NCBI GenBank assembly: GCA_030690415.1
Contig: JAUYGZ010000007.1
Span: 1-46,439 of the forward strand
From: a bacterium
Lineage (GTDB): Bacteria; Patescibacteriota; Gracilibacteria; JAUYGZ01
Length of the DNA stretch: 46,439 nt
Reading direction: 5' to 3'
Made by a program: the position numbers and the translations under genes. Every line of letters starts with the position of its first letter. The first letter of the stretch is position 1. The notes under the pieces are model-generated. The model did not search any database. It saw only the letters and a list, made by a program, of their open reading frames with translations, and was not told the DNA's origin. Of the stretch, positions 22,301 to 46,439 are shown piece by piece.

Positions 22301-24383
22301 TTGTCCAGGTAATATTATCGGCTGTGGTTGGCGCACTCCAGGTTACTCCGGTCGCGGTGCCGCCGGTTGTAATATCAGTTGCATCAAATGTAGCCGGGTC
22401 AATTGCTTCATTAAACACCACGGTGAAATCAATCACCGGGTTATCGGTTGGATCAGCCTGTCCGACTTTTTGATCGATGGTGACATCAGGGTTCAGATTA
22501 TCCACCTGAAAATCACCTGACGCCTGCGGAGCGCCATCGGCACTGGTATTCGGCGTCACTCTTACTTCAATGTCTGACTGATCAATGCCGTCAAGCGAAC
22601 CATTGCCATTAGAGGCGGATTTTGTATACCAAACGATAGTTAATGTGACATTGGCAAAGTCATCCGTATCAATACCATTAACTGTGCCAATCTGATAAGC
22701 GTTAGCATTACTCATATCTACTACGCCATTATTAGGAGTAGAGGAAATTAATTCCGGATCATACCAAGTGGATCCGCTGTCATCGGAATATTCCACTTTC
22801 AATTTGGTTTCATTGGAATCAGCATCAGCAATGGTAGTTTGAAAACTGACATAACCGGAACCATCAGTATATTGAGTAATTGTACCCGGGGTAGTAGCTG
22901 TTGGCGCCGAGCCAATCTCGCCTAATTGCCAATCACTAAAAGTGGTCTCGCCAATCGCCTGAGTGCTTGTTCCCGTTTTAGCACCGACTACAGGATAAGA
23001 CCAGCCGGCATCATATTTACCCACAATAAAATTAGCAGGATTAGCTGTGCCATCCAGATCCCCGGCTACAAAATTAAATGTCGGGTCAAAGTTTCCGGTG
23101 ACAGGAGTAAAAGTAATGCCTGAATTAGTCGTGCTCCAGCATCTGTTGGCGGTTTTACCGGCGTTGATTGTAGAACTGCCGATATTCGGACAATCCGCTG
23201 AAGCCGTGCTGATAGTTAAATCGCCGGCTCCTGAAACATCATTAAAAGCAATATCTACCGGGGTATAATTTGTAGCATCGCCAATTTCAAAAGTTTTACT
23301 TAGGCTGCCTGTTGTAATATATTTTCTTAAATTTCCTATCACATGGCTACCGGTACTACCGCCGGAAACACTGCCGGTTGAATTAATGTAAATGTTGTTA
23401 GCGCCGGTGGTAATATTACCGGAAGTCAAAGTCAGAAAGCCGGCAATTGTAGGATTGACACTGTCAAGCACAACTCCGTCTGAATTATTTATAATTAAAT
23501 CATTAAATGTTGTGGCAGTTGTTCCCCCAATGGTCTGCGCGCCTGATAATCCGGCGAGGTTTATCGTGGTTCCGCTTAAATCAACGGTCGCACCATTATT
23601 GGTCCAGTTTCTGCCGACATTGTGCGTGAAAGCTCCACCGGTAAATGTGGTGCCTGAACCCAGTATAACATCTCCGTCAATAGTCAGGGCTGACGCCGCA
23701 GTCGCAGAGGCAGTTCCGGACATGGTGAAATTATCATCTATCAGTAATGTGGCGGCCGGCATGGTCTTAATCCCGGTACCGCTCAAGATAAGGTTATGAT
23801 AGCCTGGGGTCATTCCGTTGGGATTCAAGACTGTTTGGGCCGCTCCATTATACTCGACAGTAGTATTAGCTCCTCCTCCTACATCCCAGGTTCCGTTATT
23901 GGTCATGGTTCCGGCAATCCCCATTACGGCATCGCTTTCTAACATCAGTTTAGCGCCGGGATCAATCGTCACATTATTAAAATCCGTTTCACCGGACATG
24001 ATGGCATTGGCGTTGGTAAAAATTACTGTACCTGTGCCGGCATTAAATGTACCGCCGGAGTTGACCCAGGTACTATTGTCGCCGGTTAAGGTCATGGTGT
24101 AGGAACCTGATGAATCCAAAATTGCACCGCTTTCGAGTGTTATCCTGCTGAACGTCAGAATTTGACCGACTGATAATGTCGGGTCATTGGGTGTGGTGGC
24201 AGCGTCAGGAATTACGACATCAGCCAAATCTGATGGGACACCAAGGGGAGACCAGTTGTTCGCAATTAACAAATCTGTGCTAACTGAACCATTCCAAGTA
24301 GAGGCTATGATTAGAGTATCACCTAAAGCCCATTCGTTTGTACCGAAGCTTGTGTCGAAATATGAGATTGGCAACCCTGACAT
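19353..24383 (-). CDS. Giant SLH-anchored surface protein, C-terminal reading frame
   Basis: This 1676-aa frame is the C-terminal part of a broken giant adhesin. It starts with a filamentous-haemagglutinin-like beta-helix region with many TxTNNG and SGxxTFNN repeats. Several Ig-like domains follow, with a repeated NQKAGQADPT motif and a repeated NASTSTDNSV motif, then an FN3 domain (about 1250-1350). Next come a run of about 16 glycines and three SLH motifs. A peptidoglycan-binding domain (GDNGSNVKTLQDILTQLGYY) interrupts the third SLH. SLH and PG-binding modules would hold it to the cell wall. The same frame continues upstream past 24383 to the TAG at 24456, where the paralogous copy has TGG, so this ATG is probably not a real start. 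Confidence 0.8.
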   Translation of the reverse strand: MSGLPISYFDTSFGTNEWALGDTLIIASTWNGSVSTDLLIANNWSPLGVPSDLADVVIPDAATTPNDPTLSVGQILTFSRITLESGAILDSSGSYTMTLTGDNSTWVNSGGTFNAGTGTVIFTNANAIMSGETDFNNVTIDPGAKLMLESDAVMGIAGTMTNNGTWDVGGGANTTVEYNGAAQTVLNPNGMTPGYHNLILSGTGIKTMPAATLLIDDNFTMSGTASATAASALTIDGDVILGSGTTFTGGAFTHNVGRNWTNNGATVDLSGTTINLAGLSGAQTIGGTTATTFNDLIINNSDGVVLDSVNPTIAGFLTLTSGNITTGANNIYINSTGSVSGGSTGSHVIGNLRKYITTGSLSKTFEIGDATNYTPVDIAFNDVSGAGDLTISTASADCPNIGSSTINAGKTANRCWSTTNSGITFTPVTGNFDPTFNFVAGDLDGTANPANFIVGKYDAGWSYPVVGAKTGTSTQAIGETTFSDWQLGEIGSAPTATTPGTITQYTDGSGYVSFQTTIADADSNETKLKVEYSDDSGSTWYDPELISSTPNNGVVDMSNANAYQIGTVNGIDTDDFANVTLTIVWYTKSASNGNGSLDGIDQSDIEVRVTPNTSADGAPQASGDFQVDNLNPDVTIDQKVGQADPTDNPVIDFTVVFNEAIDPATFDATDITTGGTATGVTWSAPTTADNITWTISTSAITTDGTVIPSIGATQVKDPVGNDNNASTSTDNSVAYDIAIPAVINVTSSTGDGIYTTSDVISIQVVFDQSVTVTGIPQLTLETGGSDAVVDYVSGSPGTTLTFAYTVNAGENSTDLDYTGTAALALNSGTIKDTATGVKDADLTLASPGTAGSLGANKDIVIDTLASTVSITAPAAASTVNGAATFTFTSSEPGTQECNIDGGTWESCSSGDAFSTLSDFAGLGQGAFTLNVRDTDTAGNIGADNRSFSKDTVAPTVNITAPLTTTKVNGTVVITFTDDDLTAAQCSVDNTNWTACTSGVTTLGDIAEFAGLGEGVFTLYLKDTDTVGNTGTDSEAGIVKDTTAPTVTVNQKAGQADPTAVSPVLFTAVFNEPINTGTFTDGDVTITGTATTGLVTITEVAPNDGTTFEVSVVVTADGTVIADIEAGNVSDIAGNTNNASTSTDNSVTYDTTAPTQAISAIDISADTGTSDSDFITNTASQTITGTLSAGLGGGDVLYGSIDDGLSWIDVTSKVSGTAISWDGATLSGSSSIKFKVTDAADNDGAIETQAYTLDTTNPTAPGNLTNGGTTTSSITITFGSETTETNFDTYKIFYKQGLSDVTEGDTEQVDADLGFIDYNSTANTVVSGLSAGTQYVFNIWAYDLAGNKVNATEVVITTSSGAGGGGGGGGGGGGGGGYIIPTEHFSAPETPVSPDDQTTDLGCTRTISTTVPFTDVNNHWAEAFIDSLYLDCVFDGKTQTLFAPDNNATRAELIKIALNTFNLGTAPFEELFIDVFENDWFAEFVTYAAKLGIVIGYINDDRTSNFKPNQFITRAEALKVILETKGITDYSGYTSDFNDVRQEDWFYDYVAYAQANNILVGYTETLRLAGPVHIFYSLPNLLGPGDNGSNVKTLQDILTQLGYYSGSLDSIYNEQLVNAVIAYQTENDIPSTGYIDENTRASILNEMLEPIQITNFMPKQAITRAEAAKISFLVKQL
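20267..20306. repeat. GGN microsatellite encoding a poly-glycine linker
   Basis: An in-frame trinucleotide repeat (CCA/CCT units on the plus strand) encodes about 16 consecutive glycines. It separates the FN3-type domain from the SLH region of the surface protein. Such tracts can change length by slippage while staying in frame. Confidence 0.85.
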
Positions 24384-24455
24384 TTTAATCCAGTTGTTTA
24401 TCAGGCTATAATCTGTTCTGCCATGTTCTTCCTCCGGGCCGGGAGGATCCTCATC

Positions 24456-26069
24456 CTAAATAACTAGCTTGTTTTCAGTATTTCCATTCAGTTCAGAATC
24501 AAGGTAGTGCAAGTTTACAGCCCCATAATTGCCGCTTGCTCCTGTTTGGATAAGATCGTATGTCCTTTGAACAGCCCCTGTTTTCCAAGCCGGTGCCGAG
24601 CCGATAGTAATTTTCACGCTGACATCCGTCGGTAACGTTCCGACATTCTCAAAACGAATTGTTGTATACTGATTACCAAAGGTATAGGTAGTGTCGGCAA
24701 TCAGTGTTGTTCGTTTAACTATTCCGGTCACATCTCCTGCACCAACTGTAGTTGCGCTAGCACCCATGATGAGTGTATTAACTCCCATAACAAGATTGCC
24801 GACTGTAGCAGAGGCGTTCGTGTTTAGCGTTAGCACTCCATTAACCGTAAAATCATTATTGCCTGTCACTGACCCTGTATCGATGGTTAAATTATCAAAA
24901 ATAAGTGTTCCCGTATTACTGATTGACGATCCGTTGGCCATGGTAACTGTACCGGCACCGGCGATAAAACTGCCGCTAACTGACAGCCCGGTTGCAACCG
25001 TAAAATCATTAGTTGTAGTGACGGCCGAACCGCTAATCACTAAATTGGCATACGCTTGAGAACTATTGGGAGTCGCCACGGTTGTAGTGGTTCCTCCATA
25101 TTCTACCGTACTGGTTGCGCCAAATGAATGAGTTGAATAATTTGACGGCAAAGTGTTTGTCCCGCCGATCTTTAAAGTAGCGCCATTAGCAATGGTCAAA
25201 GTCCCGCCCGGCGCGGTTCTATCGGTGGTAAAAGTTGCCTGATCAAACGTGCCGGCACTAATTAAAAGATCACCGCTAACGGTACGATTACCGTCAAGAG
25301 TGACCGTATTACCCGGATTATTAATGGTCAGATTATTTACAGTAGCGGGTAAACCATTCCCCGTAACCTGATTGGCAGTGCCATTGTAAGTATAATTTGC
25401 TCCCGTACTAAAATTGCGAGTTGTTGTTTGAATATTTCCCGTGGCACCGGCTGAAGAAATCCCGCCTGTTGAACCAATACCCAAAGTTCCTCCTAACGCC
25501 AAAGTAAGTGTGCCTCCACCGGAAACTACAAAGCTGCCGGCATAAAATGCAGCGCCGTCAATAACCGTCATTGTCCCGGAAGTGCTGAAATTAGCGGCAG
25601 CGCTAACAATGTCGGTCGTATTGGAAATATTTAGAATATTAAAAACAGGATCGGTTGTTCCGCCAATTGTTTGAGCCACGGTTCCATCCAAAGTAACAGT
25701 GCTTCCTGTTGCCGTAAGAACACCATCGTTTGTGAAATTCCCACCGACCGTGAAAGTGCCCCCTGTTCCCGTAAAAGTAGCTCCTGTATTATTTGTAAAG
25801 TTTCCGCCGAGGTCAATGGTGCCACCTGTAGCCGTAAAAGTACCATCGTTTGTGAGATTGCCCCCGATTGTGTCGGAATAAGCTCCCATTGTAAAAGTAT
25901 TGCCTGATCCAACAGTAAAGTTGTCCATCGTATCTATAACACCGCCCGCAGTCGCGGATGCGGTTCCGGACATGGTAAAATCCATACCTATATTCAAGGT
26001 GGTCGCCGGCATGGTCTTAATCCCGGTACCGCTTAATATAAGGCTATGGTAGCCTGGGCTTGGTCCCAT
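24456..26069 (-). CDS. Giant surface protein, middle reading frame
   Basis: This 537-aa frame is a Gly/Thr/Ser/Asn-rich beta-helix region without catalytic motifs. It begins at an internal ATG created by a frame change; the sequence MGPSPGYHSLILSG aligns with MTPGYHNLILSG of the downstream copy. It ends at an in-frame TAG (24456-24458) within LV-I-stop-DEDPPGPEEEHGR, where the upstream copy reads LVTWDEDPPGPEEEHGR. The middle and C-terminal frames are therefore one frame cut by a single amber codon. Confidence 0.75.
   Translation of the reverse strand: MGPSPGYHSLILSGTGIKTMPATTLNIGMDFTMSGTASATAGGVIDTMDNFTVGSGNTFTMGAYSDTIGGNLTNDGTFTATGGTIDLGGNFTNNTGATFTGTGGTFTVGGNFTNDGVLTATGSTVTLDGTVAQTIGGTTDPVFNILNISNTTDIVSAAANFSTSGTMTVIDGAAFYAGSFVVSGGGTLTLALGGTLGIGSTGGISSAGATGNIQTTTRNFSTGANYTYNGTANQVTGNGLPATVNNLTINNPGNTVTLDGNRTVSGDLLISAGTFDQATFTTDRTAPGGTLTIANGATLKIGGTNTLPSNYSTHSFGATSTVEYGGTTTTVATPNSSQAYANLVISGSAVTTTNDFTVATGLSVSGSFIAGAGTVTMANGSSISNTGTLIFDNLTIDTGSVTGNNDFTVNGVLTLNTNASATVGNLVMGVNTLIMGASATTVGAGDVTGIVKRTTLIADTTYTFGNQYTTIRFENVGTLPTDVSVKITIGSAPAWKTGAVQRTYDLIQTGASGNYGAVNLHYLDSELNGNTENKLVI
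24589..24716. repeat. 128-bp exact direct repeat, copy 2
   Basis: By eye, every base matches 26846-26973 (offset 2257 bp). It is the most conserved part of a larger duplicated segment of the surface-protein gene that runs over roughly 1.1 kb at lower identity. Confidence 0.85.
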
Positions 26070-28518
26070 TTGGGTTCAAGATAGTCTGAGCTCCTCCGTT
26101 ATACTCGACGGTATTATGGACTTCATGACCCCCTTCAACATCCCAAATTCCGTTATTAGTCATTGTACCGGCAATTCTCATGACAGTATTACTTCCCAAC
26201 TTCAATTTTGCGCCAGCATCAATTGTTACATTATAGAAATCCGTTTCACCGGACATAGTGGCATTGGAATTGGTAAAAATCACCGTGCCTGTGCCGGCAT
26301 TAAAGATCCCCCCGTTGTTACTCCACGCACCGCTCGCACCGGAGATGGTCGCGGTGTAGGAACTTGATGAATTTAAAATTGCACCGCTTTCGAGTGTTAA
26401 TCTTCCGACTACCAGAATTTGACCCGGGGACAAGATAGGGTCATTGGGCGTGGTGGAAGCATCAGGAATGACGACATCGGCCAAATCCGATGGAACACCG
26501 TTGGGAGTCCAGTTACCGGCAATTTGCCAATTCGTATCAAGTGATCCATTCCAAGTAGAGCTTGAGAGGAGAGTGTCACCTAATGTCCATGCATTTATGC
26601 CGAAACTTGTGCCTAAATATGAAACTGGCAAGCCTGATATTCCAACCCAGTTGTTTGTCAGGTCATAATTTGATCTACCATGTTCTTCCTCTGGGCCAGG
26701 AGGATCTTCGTCCCAAGTAACTAATGTGTTTTCAGTATTCCCATTCAGTTCGGCATCAAGGTAGTGCAGATTTATAGTCACATAACTGCCACTTCCCCCT
26801 GTCTGGATCAAATCATAAGTTCTCCGGATAGCATCCGTCTTCCATGCCGGTGCCGAGCCGATAGTAATTTTCACGCTGACATCCGTCGGTAACGTTCCGA
26901 CATTCTCAAAACGAATTGTTGTATACTGATTACCAAAGGTATAGGTAGTGTCGGCAATCAGTGTTGTTCGTTTCACTATTCCTACCACGTCTCCTGCGCC
27001 GACTGTTGTGGCAGATGCACCCATGGTCAAGGTATTTGCTCCCGTATTAAGGCTGCCTACAGTTGCAGATGGATTTGCGCTTAAACTAAGTACTCCATTT
27101 ACAGTACTATCAATGCTGGCGCCGACGCCGGTTGTGGTATTGCCTACCGTAAGGTTGTTAAAAGTGGTACTTGCGCTTCCGCTGATGGTTTGCGCGCTTG
27201 TGCCATTAAAAACTGTCGTACTTGTGCTTGGTGTAAACGTTCCGTTTTTGGTCCAATTGCCACCCACATTGTAAGCACTGTTTCCGCCGGAAGTTAAAGT
27301 TCCGTTTATTGTTAAGTCAAGTGTAGTTAAAGTTTCCGTTCCGCCAATGGTCAAAGTATCGCCGGAAAGAATATCTATTTTTTCATCTGAATAAGAATTG
27401 CCGGCATCAACATTTATAACAGAGGCATTAGCCGAGTGCATAATATCCTCGTCATTGTCATTATCGTATAAGCCAAGATTGGCTAAGGTTAGGCTTTGGT
27501 CGGTTGAACTGCCGAGAGAAAGCACATGACGGTTTAGAACCATGCCGGTAATATTTCCATCTGCTCCGGCTTGTTTGGTCACGGCAGTGGATTCATTGGC
27601 CTCAGTCGCGCCGTCATTCCAGACTGTCACAATGTCATTGGCCGCCAGTGGTACTCCGGAAATGCTCCATGAGCCGGAGGAAACCGTACCGGTAAGCCCT
27701 GTTTGCAACACTCCGTTTAAAGCAATGGCGACCGTACTACCATTCGCCAAATTTGTCGTTCCTGAAATAGTGTATGCTGGAGCTTTAAAAGTGACGATAA
27801 TACCCACCCACTCTTCATTATCATTAACACCATCTTGAGTGCCGTATGTGCCGATGGTTGTTAATGTTTTTTCATAAATACCCATAGTAACACGATTATC
27901 TCCGCCATCATATTCACCAAGTTGTACAAAGCCATTAGTCGGTGCATTTGAAAGAACATCATTTGATTCCCTGGTAACCAAGGCGGCAATGGCAACTTCA
28001 TTATTTTGAGCAGTAGCTGTAGTAGTACCTGAACTAACCGTATTGCTGGCACCTAACGTCGATGCTGTTTTATCTAACGGCGATACCGTGGCTATACCCG
28101 AATATTCCATCATAACCACGGCCGATCTAGCGGACGGGCTTATGCCCCAAGTTTTAGATCCTGATTGAGAAGCCGCATTTGCAATATAATATATAGCTGA
28201 ACCGATTCTTGTAGTATTGTTTTGTCTTTTAGCCAATGTCCAGCCTCCTGCCGGAGGGGTTATTGTAATATCTGTTCCATCGTCAAAAGAGACAATGGCT
28301 ACCAATAAATTGCCGGCTGTCGTGGCAGAAGCCCAGGACGCGGAAACAGTAGTAGATACTCCTGATTTGGTCCCGAACACAACTTGTCCTCTTGTTATGG
28401 GGTCAGCGCTTACTTTGTTTATATTTAAAGAAAACACAAATATTGCGAATATCGTTAAAAATAAAATCAAGACGCTTAAGCCGATTTTTCGTCGTTTGAT
28501 ATTGTAATTTTTGATCAT
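26044..28518 (-). CDS. Giant surface protein, N-terminal reading frame
   Basis: This 824-aa frame carries the true N-terminus. A charged start is followed by a hydrophobic signal segment (about residues 12-32) ending in KVSADP. A lectin-like beta domain follows (about 40-250), then beta-helix repeats. It ends in NPNGTKPRLP, where the paralogous copy continues NPNGMTPGYHNL. One extra nucleotide around 26055-26070 explains the break, and the next frame overlaps it by 26 nt. Together the three frames span about 9.2 kb and would encode roughly 3,050 residues. It has its own promoter at 28546-28574. Confidence 0.8.
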   Translation of the reverse strand: MIKNYNIKRRKIGLSVLILFLTIFAIFVFSLNINKVSADPITRGQVVFGTKSGVSTTVSASWASATTAGNLLVAIVSFDDGTDITITPPAGGWTLAKRQNNTTRIGSAIYYIANAASQSGSKTWGISPSARSAVVMMEYSGIATVSPLDKTASTLGASNTVSSGTTTATAQNNEVAIAALVTRESNDVLSNAPTNGFVQLGEYDGGDNRVTMGIYEKTLTTIGTYGTQDGVNDNEEWVGIIVTFKAPAYTISGTTNLANGSTVAIALNGVLQTGLTGTVSSGSWSISGVPLAANDIVTVWNDGATEANESTAVTKQAGADGNITGMVLNRHVLSLGSSTDQSLTLANLGLYDNDNDEDIMHSANASVINVDAGNSYSDEKIDILSGDTLTIGGTETLTTLDLTINGTLTSGGNSAYNVGGNWTKNGTFTPSTSTTVFNGTSAQTISGSASTTFNNLTVGNTTTGVGASIDSTVNGVLSLSANPSATVGSLNTGANTLTMGASATTVGAGDVVGIVKRTTLIADTTYTFGNQYTTIRFENVGTLPTDVSVKITIGSAPAWKTDAIRRTYDLIQTGGSGSYVTINLHYLDAELNGNTENTLVTWDEDPPGPEEEHGRSNYDLTNNWVGISGLPVSYLGTSFGINAWTLGDTLLSSSTWNGSLDTNWQIAGNWTPNGVPSDLADVVIPDASTTPNDPILSPGQILVVGRLTLESGAILNSSSSYTATISGASGAWSNNGGIFNAGTGTVIFTNSNATMSGETDFYNVTIDAGAKLKLGSNTVMRIAGTMTNNGIWDVEGGHEVHNTVEYNGGAQTILNPNGTKPRLP
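26846..26973. repeat. 128-bp exact direct repeat, copy 1
   Basis: This is the upstream partner (in gene direction) of 24589-24716. The flanking DNA is also related but diverged. It points to internal segmental duplication of the surface-protein gene. Confidence 0.85.
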
Positions 28519-39918: not shown

Positions 39919-41451
39919 CTAAACAGAGTGAAGCGAAGGCGGAAGGGGAGGGGGAATGGAGTGAAGCACTTCAAAGATTTTGACCATCGCCAGAGTGTCT
40001 AGTTTGCAGTATTCCAATAAGTCTTTTTTCAGCTGTTCTTTTTCCTGTTCATTCACAGCTTCAAACATCATTTTCTTCCAGGCGTTCATGGCCATGGAGC
40101 CATCCCGGACGTTCAAATTGGCGTAGGACATTTGCGGTACCAGGACGGGTAAGACGTCTTTGATGGAAAAGCCTCCTTTGAAGTCAGGATGGAGATAAAG
40201 TTGTTTTGAGAAAATTTCCATCAGGTCAAAGAGCCTTTGGTTATAGTCACGAAAAGACTCAGCGCAATCTGGCATCAGATCAGCAAGATCTTCGTTGCAT
40301 TTTTCTTCAAATTTCTTGTTCCAAACGATGATGTTTCCTTCTTGTCCGATCATTTTCGTCAGGTTGTTTGCCAGTGCAATCATCGGGTGGGCATCAGGAT
40401 CTGTGTGGAGGTACTCATAGTGCTCCAGTGCTTCATGGGGTGCTCTCAGGGCGTGTAATGAGAACTGAAAGGGGACTTGTTGATAAGGAGCGCAGCCGTC
40501 ATAGATCGGCACGGCGGTAGGATAGGTTTCGTAGTCCAAAAAGTAGAGGGGATACTCCAGTTCATCTAATGTTTCCAGGATTTCCTGATGCTTGATAATG
40601 GGAATTTTCGATTGAGCTACCTGCACATGGTTTCGCTGGTACTTCGTCAGTTCAAAATCTTCAGGAACATCTTCGAGAGCATAGTGGCCGCTCTCTACAA
40701 GCCCTTCCAATCGTTTGAGGCTATTTCCAATGCGGACAATGTCGTGTACAGAGTAGTCGGGGACATCAGGGTACAGGTATTTGAAAGCCGGACAGTGGTT
40801 ATTGCGTGATTTGTAAATACAGTCACAAGGAAGAGGCTCTTTCTCATTTTCGATCATTCGCTGCAGGTGGGGGATCATGAGCTGGACCTCTTTTTCCCGT
40901 TCTTTCACTTTTTCCGTGATATCGGTGATTTGCAGCAGTTCTCTGGGCTTTATCCCCCCGTGTTTCCGGAATTCTTTGTTTAATTCGATCAGGTTCACTC
41001 GTCCGACATCAAGACCTGCCTTTTTGGCGACGATGTATTGAAAAGTAGCATCATAGAGCTGTTCTTCTTTCTTTTTCTCTTTGCTGCTGGTGGCTTTTAC
41101 TTCATTGATGATCCAATGACCAAGACTCTCATCCCACTCTAAAATATCCACCATGGCGTAGAGATTTTCAGCCTGGAATGTGGCCTGAAAAATGGCTTTA
41201 TTCTCTTCCGCGAGGAGTTTTTGAGTTTCTTTGACAGCGGCAGCTTCTCTGCTATTCACCAGAACGCCTCTGGGAAATAATTTCCTGGCCCAGAGTTCTA
41301 CTTCCTTTCCGTTTTTAATGAGTTCTTTGTCAAAGTCACTCAGTTCTTGCTCCGCGAGCACTTCCGGCTTTTTCTTGAAGAACCAGAAGTATGCGGGGCA
41401 TTCCAGGTAGCGGAGGAAGTCGGATTTGGTGATGGGGGAGGGGTTGGTCAT
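39919..41451 (-). CDS. DUF2779 nuclease: Cas4-like Fe-S PD-(D/E)XK domain plus DEDD exonuclease domain
   Basis: This 510-aa protein has an N-terminal RecB/Cas4-like half. Cys18 (in YLECPAYFW) with Cys209, Cys211 and Cys220 can form a Cas4-type 4Fe-4S site, and Asp102, Glu117 and Lys119 fit a PD-(D/E)XK active site. The C-terminal half is DUF2779, with the DEDD exonuclease motif YFLDYET (Asp306, Glu308), NKKFEEKC and a final YCKLDTLAM. It should process nucleic acid, probably DNA ends. The start at 41451 overlaps the RelE-like toxin by 4 nt (ATGA), so toxin, antitoxin and nuclease are likely one operon. The start also matches the truncated copy at 42719-42880. Confidence 0.82.
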   Translation of the reverse strand: MTNPSPITKSDFLRYLECPAYFWFFKKKPEVLAEQELSDFDKELIKNGKEVELWARKLFPRGVLVNSREAAAVKETQKLLAEENKAIFQATFQAENLYAMVDILEWDESLGHWIINEVKATSSKEKKKEEQLYDATFQYIVAKKAGLDVGRVNLIELNKEFRKHGGIKPRELLQITDITEKVKEREKEVQLMIPHLQRMIENEKEPLPCDCIYKSRNNHCPAFKYLYPDVPDYSVHDIVRIGNSLKRLEGLVESGHYALEDVPEDFELTKYQRNHVQVAQSKIPIIKHQEILETLDELEYPLYFLDYETYPTAVPIYDGCAPYQQVPFQFSLHALRAPHEALEHYEYLHTDPDAHPMIALANNLTKMIGQEGNIIVWNKKFEEKCNEDLADLMPDCAESFRDYNQRLFDLMEIFSKQLYLHPDFKGGFSIKDVLPVLVPQMSYANLNVRDGSMAMNAWKKMMFEAVNEQEKEQLKKDLLEYCKLDTLAMVKIFEVLHSIPPPLPPSLHSV

Positions 41452-41783
41452 GTGATGGATTGGAGATATGCGCGAATGAGCTGCTGATCCTCTCGGTCTT
41501 TTTCCGATTTGGAAAAAACTTCCAGGAACACGAAGGTGACGATGTTGTTGTGATAAGCATATACGATTCTGAGCGAAGATTCTCGAAGATAGCGACAAAA
41601 GAGTCGAGCTTTGACGATAACGGCCTTCTCAGAACGGTGAAGAACCGCAAACTTGTTCCCGTTGCCCTCGGGGGATACTTTCAGCATATCCTTGAGCTCT
41701 TCCAGATCCTGAGGCAAAGAGGGGTATTTCCGTTCCAATTTTTTGAAGGACTTCGTAAATTCATCTAAGGCATCAAAGTTCAT
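41448..41783 (-). CDS. RelE-like toxin
   Basis: This 111-aa protein has the small alpha-beta RelE/ParE layout: N-terminal helices (FTKSFKKLERKYPSLPQDLEEL), then strands with VIVKARLFCRYL and LRIVYAYHN, and TFVFLEVFSKSEKDRED. RelE toxins usually cut mRNA at the ribosome. It overlaps the upstream antitoxin by 11 nt and the downstream nuclease by 4 nt. A Shine-Dalgarno-like AAGGA lies 8 nt before its ATG inside the antitoxin gene. The pairing with a Panacea-domain antitoxin supports the call. Confidence 0.75.
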   Translation of the reverse strand: MNFDALDEFTKSFKKLERKYPSLPQDLEELKDMLKVSPEGNGNKFAVLHRSEKAVIVKARLFCRYLRESSLRIVYAYHNNIVTFVFLEVFSKSEKDREDQQLIRAYLQSIT

Positions 41784-42552
41784 CGGTGAATTCCTTTACA
41801 GAATATTTGTCAGAACGATAAAAAACTGATTCGTAATGAATGTCTTCGCCGAGTTGGCGAACCACCCAGGGCACATCCTGATGGGAGTAATCACTCAGTT
41901 CCCGGGCCGTCTTATTCCCAAGTCGCTGCAGAACATCATCAATGAGTTTGATTTCCTGGGCGCTCAAATCTTTCAAATTCGGCTCCCGGCGCGGGAGGTA
42001 TTTCCTCTGCTCGTACTGAAAATATTTACTTTTTACCTGCTCCACGTCACCGGCAGCGATCATCTGTTCAACGACCTTCTTGAACATCACCGGGGTTGGT
42101 CCATGGTGGTTTTTGATATACGTCGCTCCGATCAGCTGTTCCTCGTATTTTTCATAATAATCGAAGTCGATGAAATAGAGCAGTTTGTAGAGCACGGTCT
42201 CACCGACATTCGGCTTGGCGCCAATCTTGTTGAGGATATACATCAATACCTCTCTGAACTTATCGACTCGCTCTTGAGGCACGCTGATACGGATGTTGAG
42301 TGGCTCGGAGGAGGGTTTTTTTGTCGGTTTGTCGATACTGACTTCCAATTGTTGGGTCTTTTTACCGGAGGCCAGGTCGTCGAGAGAAATATCGAAAAGT
42401 TTAACGAGCTTCTGAGCTTCGGCCAAAGAAAGACCTCTCTCTCCCTGCTCGATCTGTGCGTAGGTTTGGCGGGTGAGGCCGAGTCTTTCAGCGAGTTGTT
42501 GCTGGGAAAGGCCGTGTTCCTTGCGAATGGATTCGAGATAGCGCTTGTTCAT
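41773..42552 (-). CDS. Panacea-domain antitoxin with XRE HTH domain
   Basis: This 259-aa protein has an XRE-type helix-turn-helix (residues 3-60: HGLSQQQLAERLGLTRQTYA). A Lys/Pro linker and a Panacea/SocA-like domain (DUF4065, about 95-235) follow, with GETVLYKLLYFIDFDYYEKY and NHHGPTPVMFKKVVEQMI. Panacea domains are known as promiscuous antitoxin domains that neutralise many toxin folds. The HTH probably represses the operon through the two AAATGTTAAA sites in its promoter. The downstream partner is a RelE-like protein. Confidence 0.87.
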   Translation of the reverse strand: MNKRYLESIRKEHGLSQQQLAERLGLTRQTYAQIEQGERGLSLAEAQKLVKLFDISLDDLASGKKTQQLEVSIDKPTKKPSSEPLNIRISVPQERVDKFREVLMYILNKIGAKPNVGETVLYKLLYFIDFDYYEKYEEQLIGATYIKNHHGPTPVMFKKVVEQMIAAGDVEQVKSKYFQYEQRKYLPRREPNLKDLSAQEIKLIDDVLQRLGNKTARELSDYSHQDVPWVVRQLGEDIHYESVFYRSDKYSVKEFTDEL

Positions 42553-42575
42553 GGTGAAAATTACCTGACATCATC

Positions 42576-42617
42576 ATGATATCAAATGTTAAAAATGCTG
42601 TCAAAATAAATGTTAAA
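42576..42617 (-). promoter_or_regulatory. Promoter and twin operator of the Panacea-RelE-nuclease operon
   Basis: On the minus strand a consensus TTGACA (42604-42599) and TATCAT (42581-42576) are spaced by 17 bp. Two identical direct repeats AAATGTTAAA (plus strand, 42584-42593 and 42608-42617), 24 bp apart, cover the spacer and the region just upstream of -35. This is the expected layout for autorepression by the HTH antitoxin. The leader would be about 17 nt. Confidence 0.75.
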
Positions 42618-42718
42618 TATTATTACTTATCTGAACGTGTCCGAAACACCCTCCCCTCTACGTCTCAAAGTTTGTATCTATCTTTATTAAGACGCATACA
42701 AAGTGCATAGGTTTGTAT

Positions 42719-42880
42719 CTACCTCCCCTGCGCGAGTCTCTCCACCTCCTCTCCCTGCTTCGCGATCCTGCTTTGGGTCTTATCGACAAGATCAGGCCTG
42801 TTTCTGCAAAGCCATCCGTAGCGGGTCCATTCCAGGTAGCGGAGGAAGTCGGATTTGGTGATGGGGGAGTTAATAGTCAT
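42719..42880 (-). pseudogene. Truncated DUF2779 gene remnant
   Basis: An ATG at 42880 opens a 53-codon frame ending at TAG (42719-42721). It reads MTINSPITKSDFLRYLEW and then QGEEVERLAQGR, clearly related to MTNPSPITKSDFLRYLEC and NGKEVELWARK of the intact nuclease. The first 50 or so nt are nearly identical to 41399-41451. The Fe-S Cys18 is replaced by Trp, and everything after residue 53 is missing. It starts 48 nt after doc, in the same relative place as the intact nuclease after relE. It could also be a small real protein. The stretch 42618-42718 holds only two GTTTGTATCTA direct repeats. Confidence 0.7.
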
Positions 42881-42928
42881 GATCTAGTGTTCAATGGGGT
42901 TCTAGTGGTGAAGGTGATTTTTTGATGA

Positions 42929-43354
42929 TTATTCATCGATGTCTTCTATGTGCTTGTTGATAAATGTTGCAATAGCTCGCACGGTGTCCTCTTTTAGACT
43001 AGGGGGGCTTTCTGCCACCCAAACAGCAAAGTTATAGAATTCTTGAGTTCCAACTTTCAGCCATTTCTTATTGGTTGCTAAGAAGGACAATAGACTCGTA
43101 ACAGCAATGCGCTTATTTCCATTTTGGAAGGGGTGATTTTTGACGAGCAGGTAAAATAAAATCGCTGCTTTGTTTACTAATCCCCTATAAAATGTTTTCC
43201 CACCAAAGTTCATAAATGGTGTCTCAAGGCAACTTTCTAACTTATTAGGAAAGCGAGTTGAGAAATCTGGAATAGGTTCATCCCATTCCATATGGCGCTT
43301 CGCGAGTTCAAATGCGAGGTATTTGATTTCAGAGATGGTTAGTTTTTTTATCAC
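42929..43354 (-). CDS. doc: Doc-like Fic-family toxin
   Basis: This 141-aa protein has the Doc/Fic motif HPFQNGNKR (His74 to Arg82) and the all-helical Doc length. Doc phosphorylates EF-Tu, while other Fic proteins AMPylate targets; the exact activity here is not shown. The start is GTG at 43354, which overlaps the antitoxin stop by 1 nt (TAGTG), so the two are translationally coupled. The order antitoxin-toxin is as in phd-doc, but the antitoxin is of another type. Confidence 0.87.
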   Translation of the reverse strand: MIKKLTISEIKYLAFELAKRHMEWDEPIPDFSTRFPNKLESCLETPFMNFGGKTFYRGLVNKAAILFYLLVKNHPFQNGNKRIAVTSLLSFLATNKKWLKVGTQEFYNFAVWVAESPPSLKEDTVRAIATFINKHIEDIDE

Positions 43355-43611
43355 TAGCTATGTTGAAGGAGTTTAAGTGTTTCTTCATATTCACGAATAA
43401 CTCTATCAATGTTTTGATCGAGTTCTCGCTTTCGTTTTTCAGAGAGATCGCCTGATTTAGACATATATCGCTTTAGTTCCTCACGGTGTACTACATAATT
43501 CCGCCCCACTTTAGAAGCCTGAAGTTCCCCAGACTGTATCTTGTTAAAGACAGTTACCCGATTTACTCCGAGTATTTTTGCGGCTTCTGTAGTTGATAGA
43601 AGATCTTTCAT
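43354..43611 (-). CDS. MerR/excisionase-type HTH antitoxin of doc
   Basis: This 85-aa protein has an excisionase-like HTH (HTH_17, residues 1-50: LSTTEAAKILGVNRVTVFNKIQSGELQASKVGRN without a break in pattern) and a charged helical tail (55-85) that could bind the toxin. Its position directly upstream of doc with a 1-nt overlap, and the palindromic operator in its promoter, make it the likely antitoxin and autorepressor. I prefer the ATG at 43611 over one four codons upstream because the motif starts there. Confidence 0.8.
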   Translation of the reverse strand: MKDLLSTTEAAKILGVNRVTVFNKIQSGELQASKVGRNYVVHREELKRYMSKSGDLSEKRKRELDQNIDRVIREYEETLKLLQHS

Positions 43612-43655
43612 GTGATTGAACAATTGTTAAAATTATTATTTATTGAATATACTTC

Positions 43656-43689: not shown

Positions 43690-44310
43690 TCAAACAATGT
43701 TTAACAGAGGCGAGATATGGGCAACTTCTTGCCCTCTGTCTTCTTTGTGCTTCTTTTCGCATGCGCGTGTTGTAATTTCCCATTCGTTATCCTCTCTGTT
43801 TGAGAGATAGAATGACATTATTTCTGTTACAGTCTTTGGGTTTGCATCTGCTTTTAGAAGGTATGAATATTTTGCACAAACAACCTGCTCATATTCAGGC
43901 TGCTTGTCTGGTGTCCATATAATTACGTTCTCGAATCCATTCACATATGAGGACCTTCCTTTAGAAAATTCCTCAATAGATTCTCCATCTTGTGCGTCGC
44001 AGTCTTGTTTTTCTAGCAAGGAGCATGCCTCTCGAAATCTGAGAGTGTTCTGGAGCTCGAAATATGACTCAACTACTTCCTCAGGCGTCATATTTCTTAG
44101 GTCGTCATTTCTGTTATTGAGGTAATTTGGGTCTCTTGCATTTTGATAATGGAAATCTCCCGCAACATTTGCCTGGAGTACCGAGGAATTATCACCAGTT
44201 GTTGAGGCATTGAAACTGCTTGAAGGATGGTTCCCAAAAAGTTTATAGCCCCCAAGTATTGTCACTAATGCGGCAGCTATAAAGACTCCCTCTTTTAGTT
44301 TTTTGTTCAT
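43690..44310 (-). CDS. Membrane-anchored extracytoplasmic protein of unknown function
   Basis: This 206-aa protein has one N-terminal hydrophobic segment (about residues 7-25). An Asn/Ser-rich linker follows, then a globular domain with PEEVVESYFELQNTLRF and EACSLLEKQDCD and four cysteines. The pattern recalls NTF2-like extracytoplasmic domains, but I cannot name a family. Its ATG overlaps the stop of the methylase gene by 4 nt (ATGA), so it is translated together with the restriction-modification enzyme, which is unusual for a secreted protein. Confidence 0.6.
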   Translation of the reverse strand: MNKKLKEGVFIAAALVTILGGYKLFGNHPSSSFNASTTGDNSSVLQANVAGDFHYQNARDPNYLNNRNDDLRNMTPEEVVESYFELQNTLRFREACSLLEKQDCDAQDGESIEEFSKGRSSYVNGFENVIIWTPDKQPEYEQVVCAKYSYLLKADANPKTVTEIMSFYLSNREDNEWEITTRACEKKHKEDRGQEVAHISPLLNIV

Positions 44311-46439
44311 ATTATGCTCGTCTTAGAAACCACCTCATCAATCTCCTTCATAATCCTCTCCGTCTCAACCAAAGCCACGATCATCTTCTGATAATGCTCA
44401 ATCTCCTCATTCGAAAGTGTTCTCCCTTTCCGGTCTTTAAGCCACTTCTGAGCCGGTTGATAACCCCCGATGTAAAAATTCCAAGCTATTTCCGGCACGT
44501 TCCCAAAGTATTGTTTCGAGTTAATAAAAACCTTTTCGTCCTTGTATGAAATCTTTTCTATAAGGTTATCTCCATCTTCGGGGTAAGTCGTGATGAATTT
44601 ATTAAGCACTGAAGATTTCAACAGATGCAATTCCCGTAATTCTTGTCCCAAGGCAACGAGCGCATCGAATTGTTTTTTATCTTTTGGATAAGAAACACGT
44701 GGGAAATCGATTTTTAGAAATTCTCTATATTTTTCTGTATAACTTAGAGAATGAAGAGAGCCATACACATAATTAAAAATATCCTCAGGAGAATTATTTC
44801 CTATAATAGCTGCAAACTCTTCAACGATTTCTTTACATAAATTAATACTAATTGTCCCATCCTTCTCAAGGATTTTTAAAGGAGCGATTAAATACGAGGC
44901 AAAAGGCTGAGATGCCATCTCTGTGATTTTATCTGAGCAAAAAATTATAAAATGCTTTCCTCCACCAAATTGCCTTGTAAAAATTAATGCATAATTGTCT
45001 TTGATTCCCAGTAGACTGCCCATCACATTTGCACGCGATCTCCCCATGAATCCTCCCGACTTCCCAGAATAGGATGTAAATCTCATATCAAAAGGCCTGT
45101 AATGGATTACTTCGATCGAGTGTTTGTTGTCAATAATATCTTTTTTGGCGCTTTCATAATTCCATCCGCTACCGATTTTGGTTCCATATTTTGTTGTTAA
45201 TTCCGGGATTGTGAGCATTTTGAATTCATCCACAACAGATTTTATTTCTTTTTTAGTAAACTGAATTGCAACAGCGTCAAATTTCGTCTGAATACCAGTA
45301 TTATAGATTGGGAATAAATCTGAAACGGAGAATCCCTTATTGTATTCCTTTTCTAATGTAAAATCTTTACTTACAAAGAAATAATAAGGATCCATATAAT
45401 TCAATTGTTCCCATTTTGTGTTATTTAAATTCATTTTATTGAGTGTCTCAAACTTATTTGATCTCTTTCCATATAGTTCCGAATAATAAACTTTTCCAAG
45501 ACCTTTTTTATTTTTTGATTTCCGAACAAAAATAGAAATCCCTACCCCTTGTTGAATATCAAAAACATTCTCATCCTTCCCGCCATCTGGAGACTTCTCT
45601 TTCTTCTTGGAATTACCGTGGAGATCAAGAATGTAAATATCATCAAAAGTTTCCAACAAATGCTTTCTCATCTGACGATGAGTAATTCCATCGATAAATG
45701 AGTTGTTCGTAATCATAGCAACAATCCCTGTACCATTTTTCTCAATAAACTGTTCTGAAAAACGAATAAATTTGATGTAGTCATCATCCAAATTAATTTT
45801 CCTTTCTCCAAGACTTTTCTTGTAGTCCTTGATGAGATTGAGTATCCAATCCCCTTTGTTTGAAGAGCTTACGCTGTAAGGTGGATTTCCTGTGACGACC
45901 ATTATCGGCGTTTGATTTTTGATTTCCGAGGCACTAATGGCTTCCTCTGCGATACTTTGTGACAGTCCGAATGAAAATAGATCATTTCCCATTAGATGCC
46001 CTTCTTCCAGAGAGTTGGTGAGATAAATTCCCAATCTTCGTGAAAAGGCAGTGTAGCCAGTATCTCGCAACGTCATTCCGAGTTTGAGATGGGCAATCGT
46101 ATAAGGAGCCATCATCAGCTCGAAGCCATGGAGGCGAGGAAGAAGATCGGTATCGACGTAGCTACGCCATCGGCCTTCTTGCCCTGAAAAACTTTTGTGG
46201 ATCTCTTGAACAATCTCATTCAAAAATGTCCCAGTGCCAACAGCCGGATCCAGAATTTGCACTTGGTGAACCATTTCCTTTCGCTTTTTTCCTTGGATAT
46301 CTCTTTCCACTTCGATTTTCGAAGTATCGGCAAGTCCATTTGCTAATCCAAAGGTGCTTTTCAGGATGTGATCGATTGAACGAACAATAAATCGAACAAC
46401 GGGTACCGGGGTATAGAAGGCTCCTAGTTTTTTCCTTTG
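44307..46439 (-). CDS. Type ISP-like restriction-modification enzyme, methyltransferase and C-terminal domains (5' end outside the window)
   Basis: The frame is open to the window edge, giving 710 visible residues. It begins near GAFYTPVPVVRFIV, then motif I DPAVGTGTFLNEIV, ELMMAPYTIAHLKLG, motif IV VTGNPPYSVSS, and IIRFSEQFIEKNG-type helices. It ends in a type ISP C-terminal domain with FYIGGYQPAQKWLKDRKGR and LSNEEIEHYQKM. This is an N6-adenine methyltransferase with a target-recognition region. In type ISP enzymes such as LlaGI a nuclease and helicase precede it on the same chain; whether they are present here lies outside the window. The DNA is visibly more AT-rich than the housekeeping genes, which suggests transfer. 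Confidence 0.85.
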   Translation of the reverse strand, partial: QRKKLGAFYTPVPVVRFIVRSIDHILKSTFGLANGLADTSKIEVERDIQGKKRKEMVHQVQILDPAVGTGTFLNEIVQEIHKSFSGQEGRWRSYVDTDLLPRLHGFELMMAPYTIAHLKLGMTLRDTGYTAFSRRLGIYLTNSLEEGHLMGNDLFSFGLSQSIAEEAISASEIKNQTPIMVVTGNPPYSVSSSNKGDWILNLIKDYKKSLGERKINLDDDYIKFIRFSEQFIEKNGTGIVAMITNNSFIDGITHRQMRKHLLETFDDIYILDLHGNSKKKEKSPDGGKDENVFDIQQGVGISIFVRKSKNKKGLGKVYYSELYGKRSNKFETLNKMNLNNTKWEQLNYMDPYYFFVSKDFTLEKEYNKGFSVSDLFPIYNTGIQTKFDAVAIQFTKKEIKSVVDEFKMLTIPELTTKYGTKIGSGWNYESAKKDIIDNKHSIEVIHYRPFDMRFTSYSGKSGGFMGRSRANVMGSLLGIKDNYALIFTRQFGGGKHFIIFCSDKITEMASQPFASYLIAPLKILEKDGTISINLCKEIVEEFAAIIGNNSPEDIFNYVYGSLHSLSYTEKYREFLKIDFPRVSYPKDKKQFDALVALGQELRELHLLKSSVLNKFITTYPEDGDNLIEKISYKDEKVFINSKQYFGNVPEIAWNFYIGGYQPAQKWLKDRKGRTLSNEEIEHYQKMIVALVETERIMKEIDEVVSKTSII

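Follow-up and report, generated by a model that had tools for sequence, protein, structure and literature searches.

Why does a gene of the predicted nuclease family DUF2779 lie directly behind a toxin-antitoxin (TA) pair in contig JAUYGZ010000007.1 of a member of the Gracilibacteria (positions 1 to 46,439, the entire stretch analyzed here and referred to below as the window), and why is the beginning of a second such gene found behind another TA pair slightly upstream? The explanation that we favor, with a probability of roughly 60%, is that exchangeable defense cassettes become stacked upstream of a promiscuous accessory DUF2779 nuclease gene and that TA pairs are one class of such cassettes. 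The gene located directly upstream of DUF2779 keeps changing (restriction subunits, GmrSD, helicase-nucleases, Qat, and TA pairs), while the DUF2779 open reading frame (ORF) is preserved nearly whole, from the start codon almost to the stop codon. The three consecutive genes of the window that encode a Panacea antitoxin, its toxin, and the nuclease are an assembled unit, not a conserved one.

All genes of this locus are on the minus strand. Re-reading of the window bore out every coordinate of the original prediction, along with its description of an HTH-Doc and a Panacea-RelE pair in a row on one strand, each followed by the start of a DUF2779 gene. In the 5' to 3' direction of the minus strand, the gene order is type ISP restriction-modification enzyme, 206-amino-acid (aa) protein, HTH_17 protein, Doc, DUF2779 remnant, HTH-Panacea, RelE/HigB-like toxin, and intact DUF2779, downstream of which lie genes of a cell-division cluster on the opposite strand. 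The features that bear on the question are these:

39919..41451, minus strand: intact DUF2779 gene, 510 aa (PF11074, E = 1.2e-39)
41399..41440, minus strand: 42-nucleotide (nt) partner tract within intact DUF2779 (nucleotide comparison)
41448..41783, minus strand: RelE/HigB-like toxin, 111 aa (homologs nearly always beside Panacea in the class; top Foldseek match HigB2)
41773..42552, minus strand: HTH-Panacea antitoxin, 259 aa (PF13274, E = 1.9e-20, above its cutoff; HTH_3, PF01381, E = 1.9e-17)
42576..42604, minus strand: predicted sigma-70 promoter TTGACA-17-TATCAT with TG before the -10 element (11/12 matches)
42719..42880, minus strand: DUF2779 5' remnant, 53 codons (DUF2779 N-terminal profile)
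42828..42869, minus strand: 42-nt tract of the remnant, matching the partner tract at 41399..41440 at every position (nucleotide comparison)
42929..43354, minus strand: Doc (Fic-fold) toxin, 141 aa (PF02661, E = 4e-10; TIGR01550, E = 1.6e-12)
43354..43623, minus strand: HTH_17 protein, 89 aa, likely Doc antitoxin (PF12728, E = 1.8e-12)

The turnover of upstream genes was evident in a wider survey, in which 89 distinct DUF2779 loci (designated L below, with G for genomes) yielded 65 same-strand upstream neighbors within 150 nt, or 66 with L102, where the toxin had been missed by the gene caller. At least 15 of the 19 large genes at this -1 position belong to restriction or defense families, namely, ResIII (8), GmrSD (2), AAA_13 (2), and MTES_1575 helicase-nucleases (3), and the smaller neighbors include matches to ThsB-type TIR and AGS_C. 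ResIII is found in 8 of the 19 large -1 genes versus 4 of the 59 other large coupled genes of these loci (P = 0.0009). TA toxins occupy the -1 position in 5 of the 66 loci (the window, L102, L081 with YafQ, and L113 and L121 with RhuM-Fic), and a sixth TA-coupled locus, L224, with a RelB-RelE-like pair (weak PDB match to RelE, E = 0.016), came from 11 further loci of the class. Unrelated TA types directly precede DUF2779 in five lineages; YafQ, RhuM-Fic, and the RelB-RelE-like pair do so at distances of 0 to 31 nt. Two recurrent arrangements were also seen in the survey: the order restriction subunit, DUF2779, and GIY-YIG/DUF4357-like gene in the Peregrinibacteria-type genomes of L035 (where DUF2779 is split), L036/L059, and L056, and a gene for a 341- to 362-aa protein with similar N termini, possibly a nuclease partner, immediately before DUF2779 in L214 (6804-7829) and L046 (10547-11635).

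Closely related loci show the same pattern. In many pairs of loci with 72 to 91% DNA identity, the shared region coincides almost exactly with the ORF and does not extend into the sequence immediately flanking it. On three plasmids of Aliarcobacter cryaerophilus (L263, L258, and L257), DUF2779 genes that are 91% identical follow wholly different cassettes, consisting of Qat, a single ATP-binding protein, and WYL plus a 692-aa protein plus DUF6602. The same AAA ATPase gene lies upstream in all three plasmids, and a constant dGTPase gene lies downstream in two of them; an AAA ATPase-DUF2779 pair is also present on the small Helicobacter plasmids L259 and L262, which encode Fic and Doc on the opposite strand at a distance of a few kilobases. 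On a DUF2779 tree built quickly with a simple model, the TA label changes 5 times for 6 rows and the restriction-type labels 13 times for 14 rows, hardly fewer than shuffled labels.

The genome of the window itself carries a second DUF2779 gene, on contig C7, which has no TA pair and matches the window copy at 90% DNA identity over a stretch that begins at the start codon and ends 46 nt short of the stop codon of the window copy. The direct neighbors of the two copies are unrelated on both sides; farther upstream, each copy has a type ISP gene, which in the window belongs to the following part of the locus:

43690..44310, minus strand: 206-aa protein with a hydrophobic N terminus (no family above cutoff)
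44307..46439, minus strand: type ISP restriction-modification enzyme, truncated by the contig end (PF18135, E = 1.7e-70; PF07669, E = 8.3e-9)

The N6 methylase and the Type_ISP_C specificity domain of this enzyme are present, its N-terminal part lying beyond the contig end. Its full-length sister (G000:C7, L003 13520-16648), upstream of the second DUF2779 gene, is 83% identical at the nucleotide level over aligned blocks and ∼98% near the contig end, with a divergent middle. The two paralogs have near-identical ends, and the window contig breaks inside a near-identical part. The genes between type ISP and DUF2779 are wholly different, those on C7 being a TIR-like gene and a membrane protein gene. 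The C7 locus (L003 405-16648) forms a second defense island in one direction, comprising type ISP, the TIR-like 301-aa gene, the membrane protein, DUF2779, DUF3800, HTH, and large helicase-like and large methylase-like genes. Type ISP was considered as a constant partner of DUF2779 and rejected, as most DUF2779 genes are without it; it is one partner among several, with DUF2779 within 5 kb of 5 of the 25 type ISP matches in the class (five sites).

Could the Panacea pair and the nuclease nevertheless work together? The ATG codon of DUF2779 overlaps the stop codon of the toxin gene by 4 nt (ATGA). The sole strong promoter-like site on the minus strand, at 42604-42576, is located just before Panacea, and no other promoter-like or terminator-like site was found on this strand between 42576 and 39919, so Panacea, toxin, and DUF2779 are probably cotranscribed here; the overall count of such sites in the region does not exceed that in shuffled sequence. 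One promoter-like site and a gene overlap suggest coexpression, as would befit a true three-gene defense unit, in which infection or nuclease loss would be sensed by Panacea-RelE and an activated TA pair would act jointly with the nuclease, as guard or trigger. In the same direction point the recurrence of the order in L102, with a 7-nt gap, the similarly tight placement of the other TA types before DUF2779, and the proposal in PMC10440598 that Panacea is a sensor domain.

The distribution of these genes argues otherwise. Of the 353 genomes of the class, 56 encode PF11074, 124 encode relatives of the window Panacea, 43 encode the RelE-like toxin, and 22 encode type ISP. Panacea-RelE occurs within 5 kb of DUF2779 in three of these genomes (G000, G282, and G295) and in the window order in two, that of the window (G000) and G282, the source of L102 (Panacea 51% and DUF2779 ∼55% identical to the window), while ∼40 genomes have Panacea-RelE with no adjoining DUF2779. 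The order of the three genes recurs in just one other genome of the class, and the near-identical sister nuclease on C7 has been kept TA-free. The TA partners are few and of separate origins, and L082, the counterpart of L081 in another genome, is in a TA-free state. In view of the TA-free sister, the single other genome, and the 5 of 66 loci with TA at -1, the guard-or-trigger unit put forward in the original prediction appears weak, and we regard it as unlikely.

The same prediction had named a lack of enrichment of TA genes upstream of DUF2779 as evidence against it, and the counts fall on neither side clearly. TA toxins were found at 5 of 65 upstream positions versus 0 of 56 downstream (Fisher P = 0.06), with no TA toxin downstream among the families listed for 49 scanned proteins; among small coupled genes, they make up 3 of 24 at -1 versus 3 of 72 elsewhere in the same loci (P = 0.16), the latter count, made among the families listed, being possibly slightly low. 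Restriction and defense genes are commoner upstream. Such nonsignificant excesses would fit plain colocation, whereby TA pairs and DUF2779 pile up in defense islands and come to lie side by side by chance, being neither transferred together nor functionally linked, as would the general richness of the surveyed loci in restriction genes and the presence in L228 of both window TA pairs with no adjoining DUF2779. Loose clustering, however, would not be expected to produce the tight same-strand spacing (-4 to +31 nt), always on the upstream side, or the three loci described next in which a TA pair separates a gene relic from an intact gene, which makes this account somewhat unlikely.

When ∼100 loci were searched against themselves, a DUF2779 5' relic upstream of the intact gene turned up only in the window, L081, and L102, and in all three a TA pair stands between relic and intact DUF2779, in the same orientation. 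Were the six TA loci distributed randomly over 100, this coincidence would have a probability of 1.2e-4, a figure tempered by the layout having been noticed before the systematic search. L081 and L082 represent the same locus in two genomes, the latter having no TA pair. L081 retains the native flank together with ∼65 nt from the 5' end of the gene (the relic), followed by the TA pair and then by a complete DUF2779 gene, which is 68 to 91% identical to that of L082 in its 5' third and 85 to 98% identical over most of the remaining ORF. Such divergence is as expected if the TA pair and the front of the gene had arrived together, and it suggests donor DNA.

The window remnant, which begins 48 nt after doc, matches the DUF2779 N-terminal profile over positions 3 to 52 (E = 1.9e-8) and therefore is not a chance ORF. 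It had been described as sharing its first 17 codons almost exactly with the intact gene; codons 4 to 17 are in fact identical (42 of 42 nt), but codons 1 to 3 differ. From codon 18 onward, the remnant represents a different DUF2779 subtype, its clearest relative being the L224 protein (RYGWLxxNRPDLxDKTQSRIAKQG), and it is therefore no simple copy of the intact gene. The joining of an identical tract to a foreign tail suggests that two DUF2779 genes have undergone recombination or gene conversion with each other. A function of the remnant as a small protein was rejected, since it ends ahead of any catalytic residue. These details bear on another scenario, tandem duplication of DUF2779 with decay of the upstream copy and landing of TA pairs in the gap. 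The common orientation of relic and intact copy in all three loci and the 42 identical nt of the window pair would agree with it. The other subtype beyond codon 17, and the mere 71% identity of the L102 relic to the neighboring intact gene, mean that the relics are not duplicates of the intact genes unless very old, in which case the decayed copies would hardly remain recognizable; tandem duplication thus looks quite improbable.

Exchange of cassettes upstream of an accessory nuclease gene could have proceeded as follows. Incoming DNA with a TA pair and DUF2779 would have recombined into a resident DUF2779 gene, whose 5' end would survive as the relic. Toxin and nuclease would now be expressed together from the promoter preceding Panacea, which is probably under autoregulation by this antitoxin, and TA addiction could help the new arrangement persist. 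DUF2779 would act as a DNA end-degrading nuclease, combining a 3'-5' DEDDy exonuclease with a Cas4/EXO5-like Fe-S nuclease, and may help destroy DNA cut or marked by whichever defense enzyme it is paired with. The alternative offered in the original prediction, a nuclease gene swapped between TA carriers, gains support from the unrelated TA types in five lineages and the relics beyond the TA pair in three loci.

Several observations weigh against this interpretation. No relic is present in L113, L121, and L224, three of the six TA-coupled loci; the nearest relative of the L081 5' third is still L082, so that donor DNA is no more than suggested. The labels "TA" and "defense" are family matches, and all nuclease activity of DUF2779 is predicted. 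Many DUF2779 genes of Paceibacteria and Bacteroidota adjoin ordinary genes, and an accessory defense role may not extend to the whole family.

The domain assignment of the original prediction, a Cas4-like Fe-S PD-(D/E)XK domain joined to a DEDD exonuclease domain, proved right by profiles, residues, and predicted structure. The intact protein passes PF11074 with 135.8 bits (cutoff, 23.3) and has its DEDD residues intact. Its AlphaFold2 model, based on an alignment of 52 sequences, has a mean predicted local distance difference test (pLDDT) score of 94.5, and the N-terminal half matches EXO5 (E = 1.7e-5) and Cas4 (E = 3e-4) in Foldseek; the PADLOC match is also Cas4 (E = 5e-7). Residues D102, E117, and K119 and cysteines C18, C209, C211, and C220 in the N-terminal half, as well as D306, E308, D409, Y481, and D485 (DEDDy) in the C-terminal half, are invariant or nearly so among the 52 sequences. 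By these predictions, DUF2779 is a Cas4/EXO5-like Fe-S PD-(D/E)XK domain fused to a DEDDy RNase H-like exonuclease domain. The Cas4 equivalog model TIGR00372 scores it at 14.9 bits, below the cutoff of 65. A fusion of RNase H-like and DUF83 domains (family F.17) with predicted 3'-5' exonuclease activity has already been published (PMC3985635). A phage origin found no support, as phage records match C-terminal fragments only (12 to 14% of the protein); full-length relatives are present on plasmids and in some viral contigs.

As for the TA pairs, the 111-aa toxin has no Pfam or NCBIfam family match at a meaningful score, and a PDB profile search gave no sequence match to RelE; its AlphaFold2 model (pLDDT, 77) has a weak top Foldseek match to HigB2 (E = 0.17; template modeling score, 0.52). 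Toxin homologs adjoin Panacea in nearly all of the 43 genomes that have them, indicating that the pairing is kept. The RelE label originally given to this protein thus finds no family match and rests on operon position, the Panacea-side homologs in ∼43 genomes, and the weak structural match. Doc scores 47.6 bits against TIGR01550 (cutoff, 38.65) and contains the sequence HPFQNGNKR, corresponding to the HxFx...NKR motif. In L228 (5621-7680, G040:C37), the two window TA pairs are adjacent and divergent, with no DUF2779 alongside and one ∼12 kb away on the same contig; identity to the window is 74% for Doc, 58% for its HTH mate, and 55% for Panacea. Elsewhere in the window, positions 23696-24855 and 25946-27112 form a ∼1.16-kb direct repeat (78% identity) across adjoining minus-strand genes.

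A broader view, which we offer only tentatively, is that DUF2779 may be a general add-on nuclease of prokaryotic immune operons, the conserved gene serving as a recombination landing pad at which one defense cassette is exchanged for another, addictive TA pairs among them, in different phyla and on plasmids. If so, an uncharacterized nuclease family would be a marker and shared part of many defense operons, and new systems could be found by inspecting the genes immediately upstream of it. TA pairs would then have a concrete and datable way into defense loci and of keeping their place there: they would be carried in when a nuclease gene is replaced, each event leaving a relic as its record.

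The window resembles several known systems. With the Panacea (PanA-PanT) type II TA systems it shares an HTH-Panacea antitoxin beside a small RelE/HigB-like toxin, with its own promoter-like site; it differs in the DUF2779 gene overlapping the toxin gene downstream, an arrangement not mentioned in the available part of PMC10440598. Family F.17 (PF11074 fused to DUF83) agrees with the window protein in its domains and in its predicted 3'-5' exonuclease activity but is described in the available part of PMC3985635 without genomic context; the changing defense partners are the addition made here. The N-terminal half of DUF2779 shares the fold, the D-E-K residues, and the four cysteines with nucleases of the Cas4/EXO5/RecE type, from which the protein differs by the DEDDy fusion and by a score far below the Cas4 equivalog cutoff. 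CreTA RNA guards of CRISPR-Cas (PMC9458426, PMC10097628) are similar in the idea of a TA element protecting a defense gene; CreTA, however, is RNA based and repressed by the effector that it guards, and a link of that kind is not shown for the window. Finally, DUF2779 lies directly behind Qat and restriction-modification genes in several loci, although among PADLOC matches it has no model of its own and appears only through its match to Cas4.

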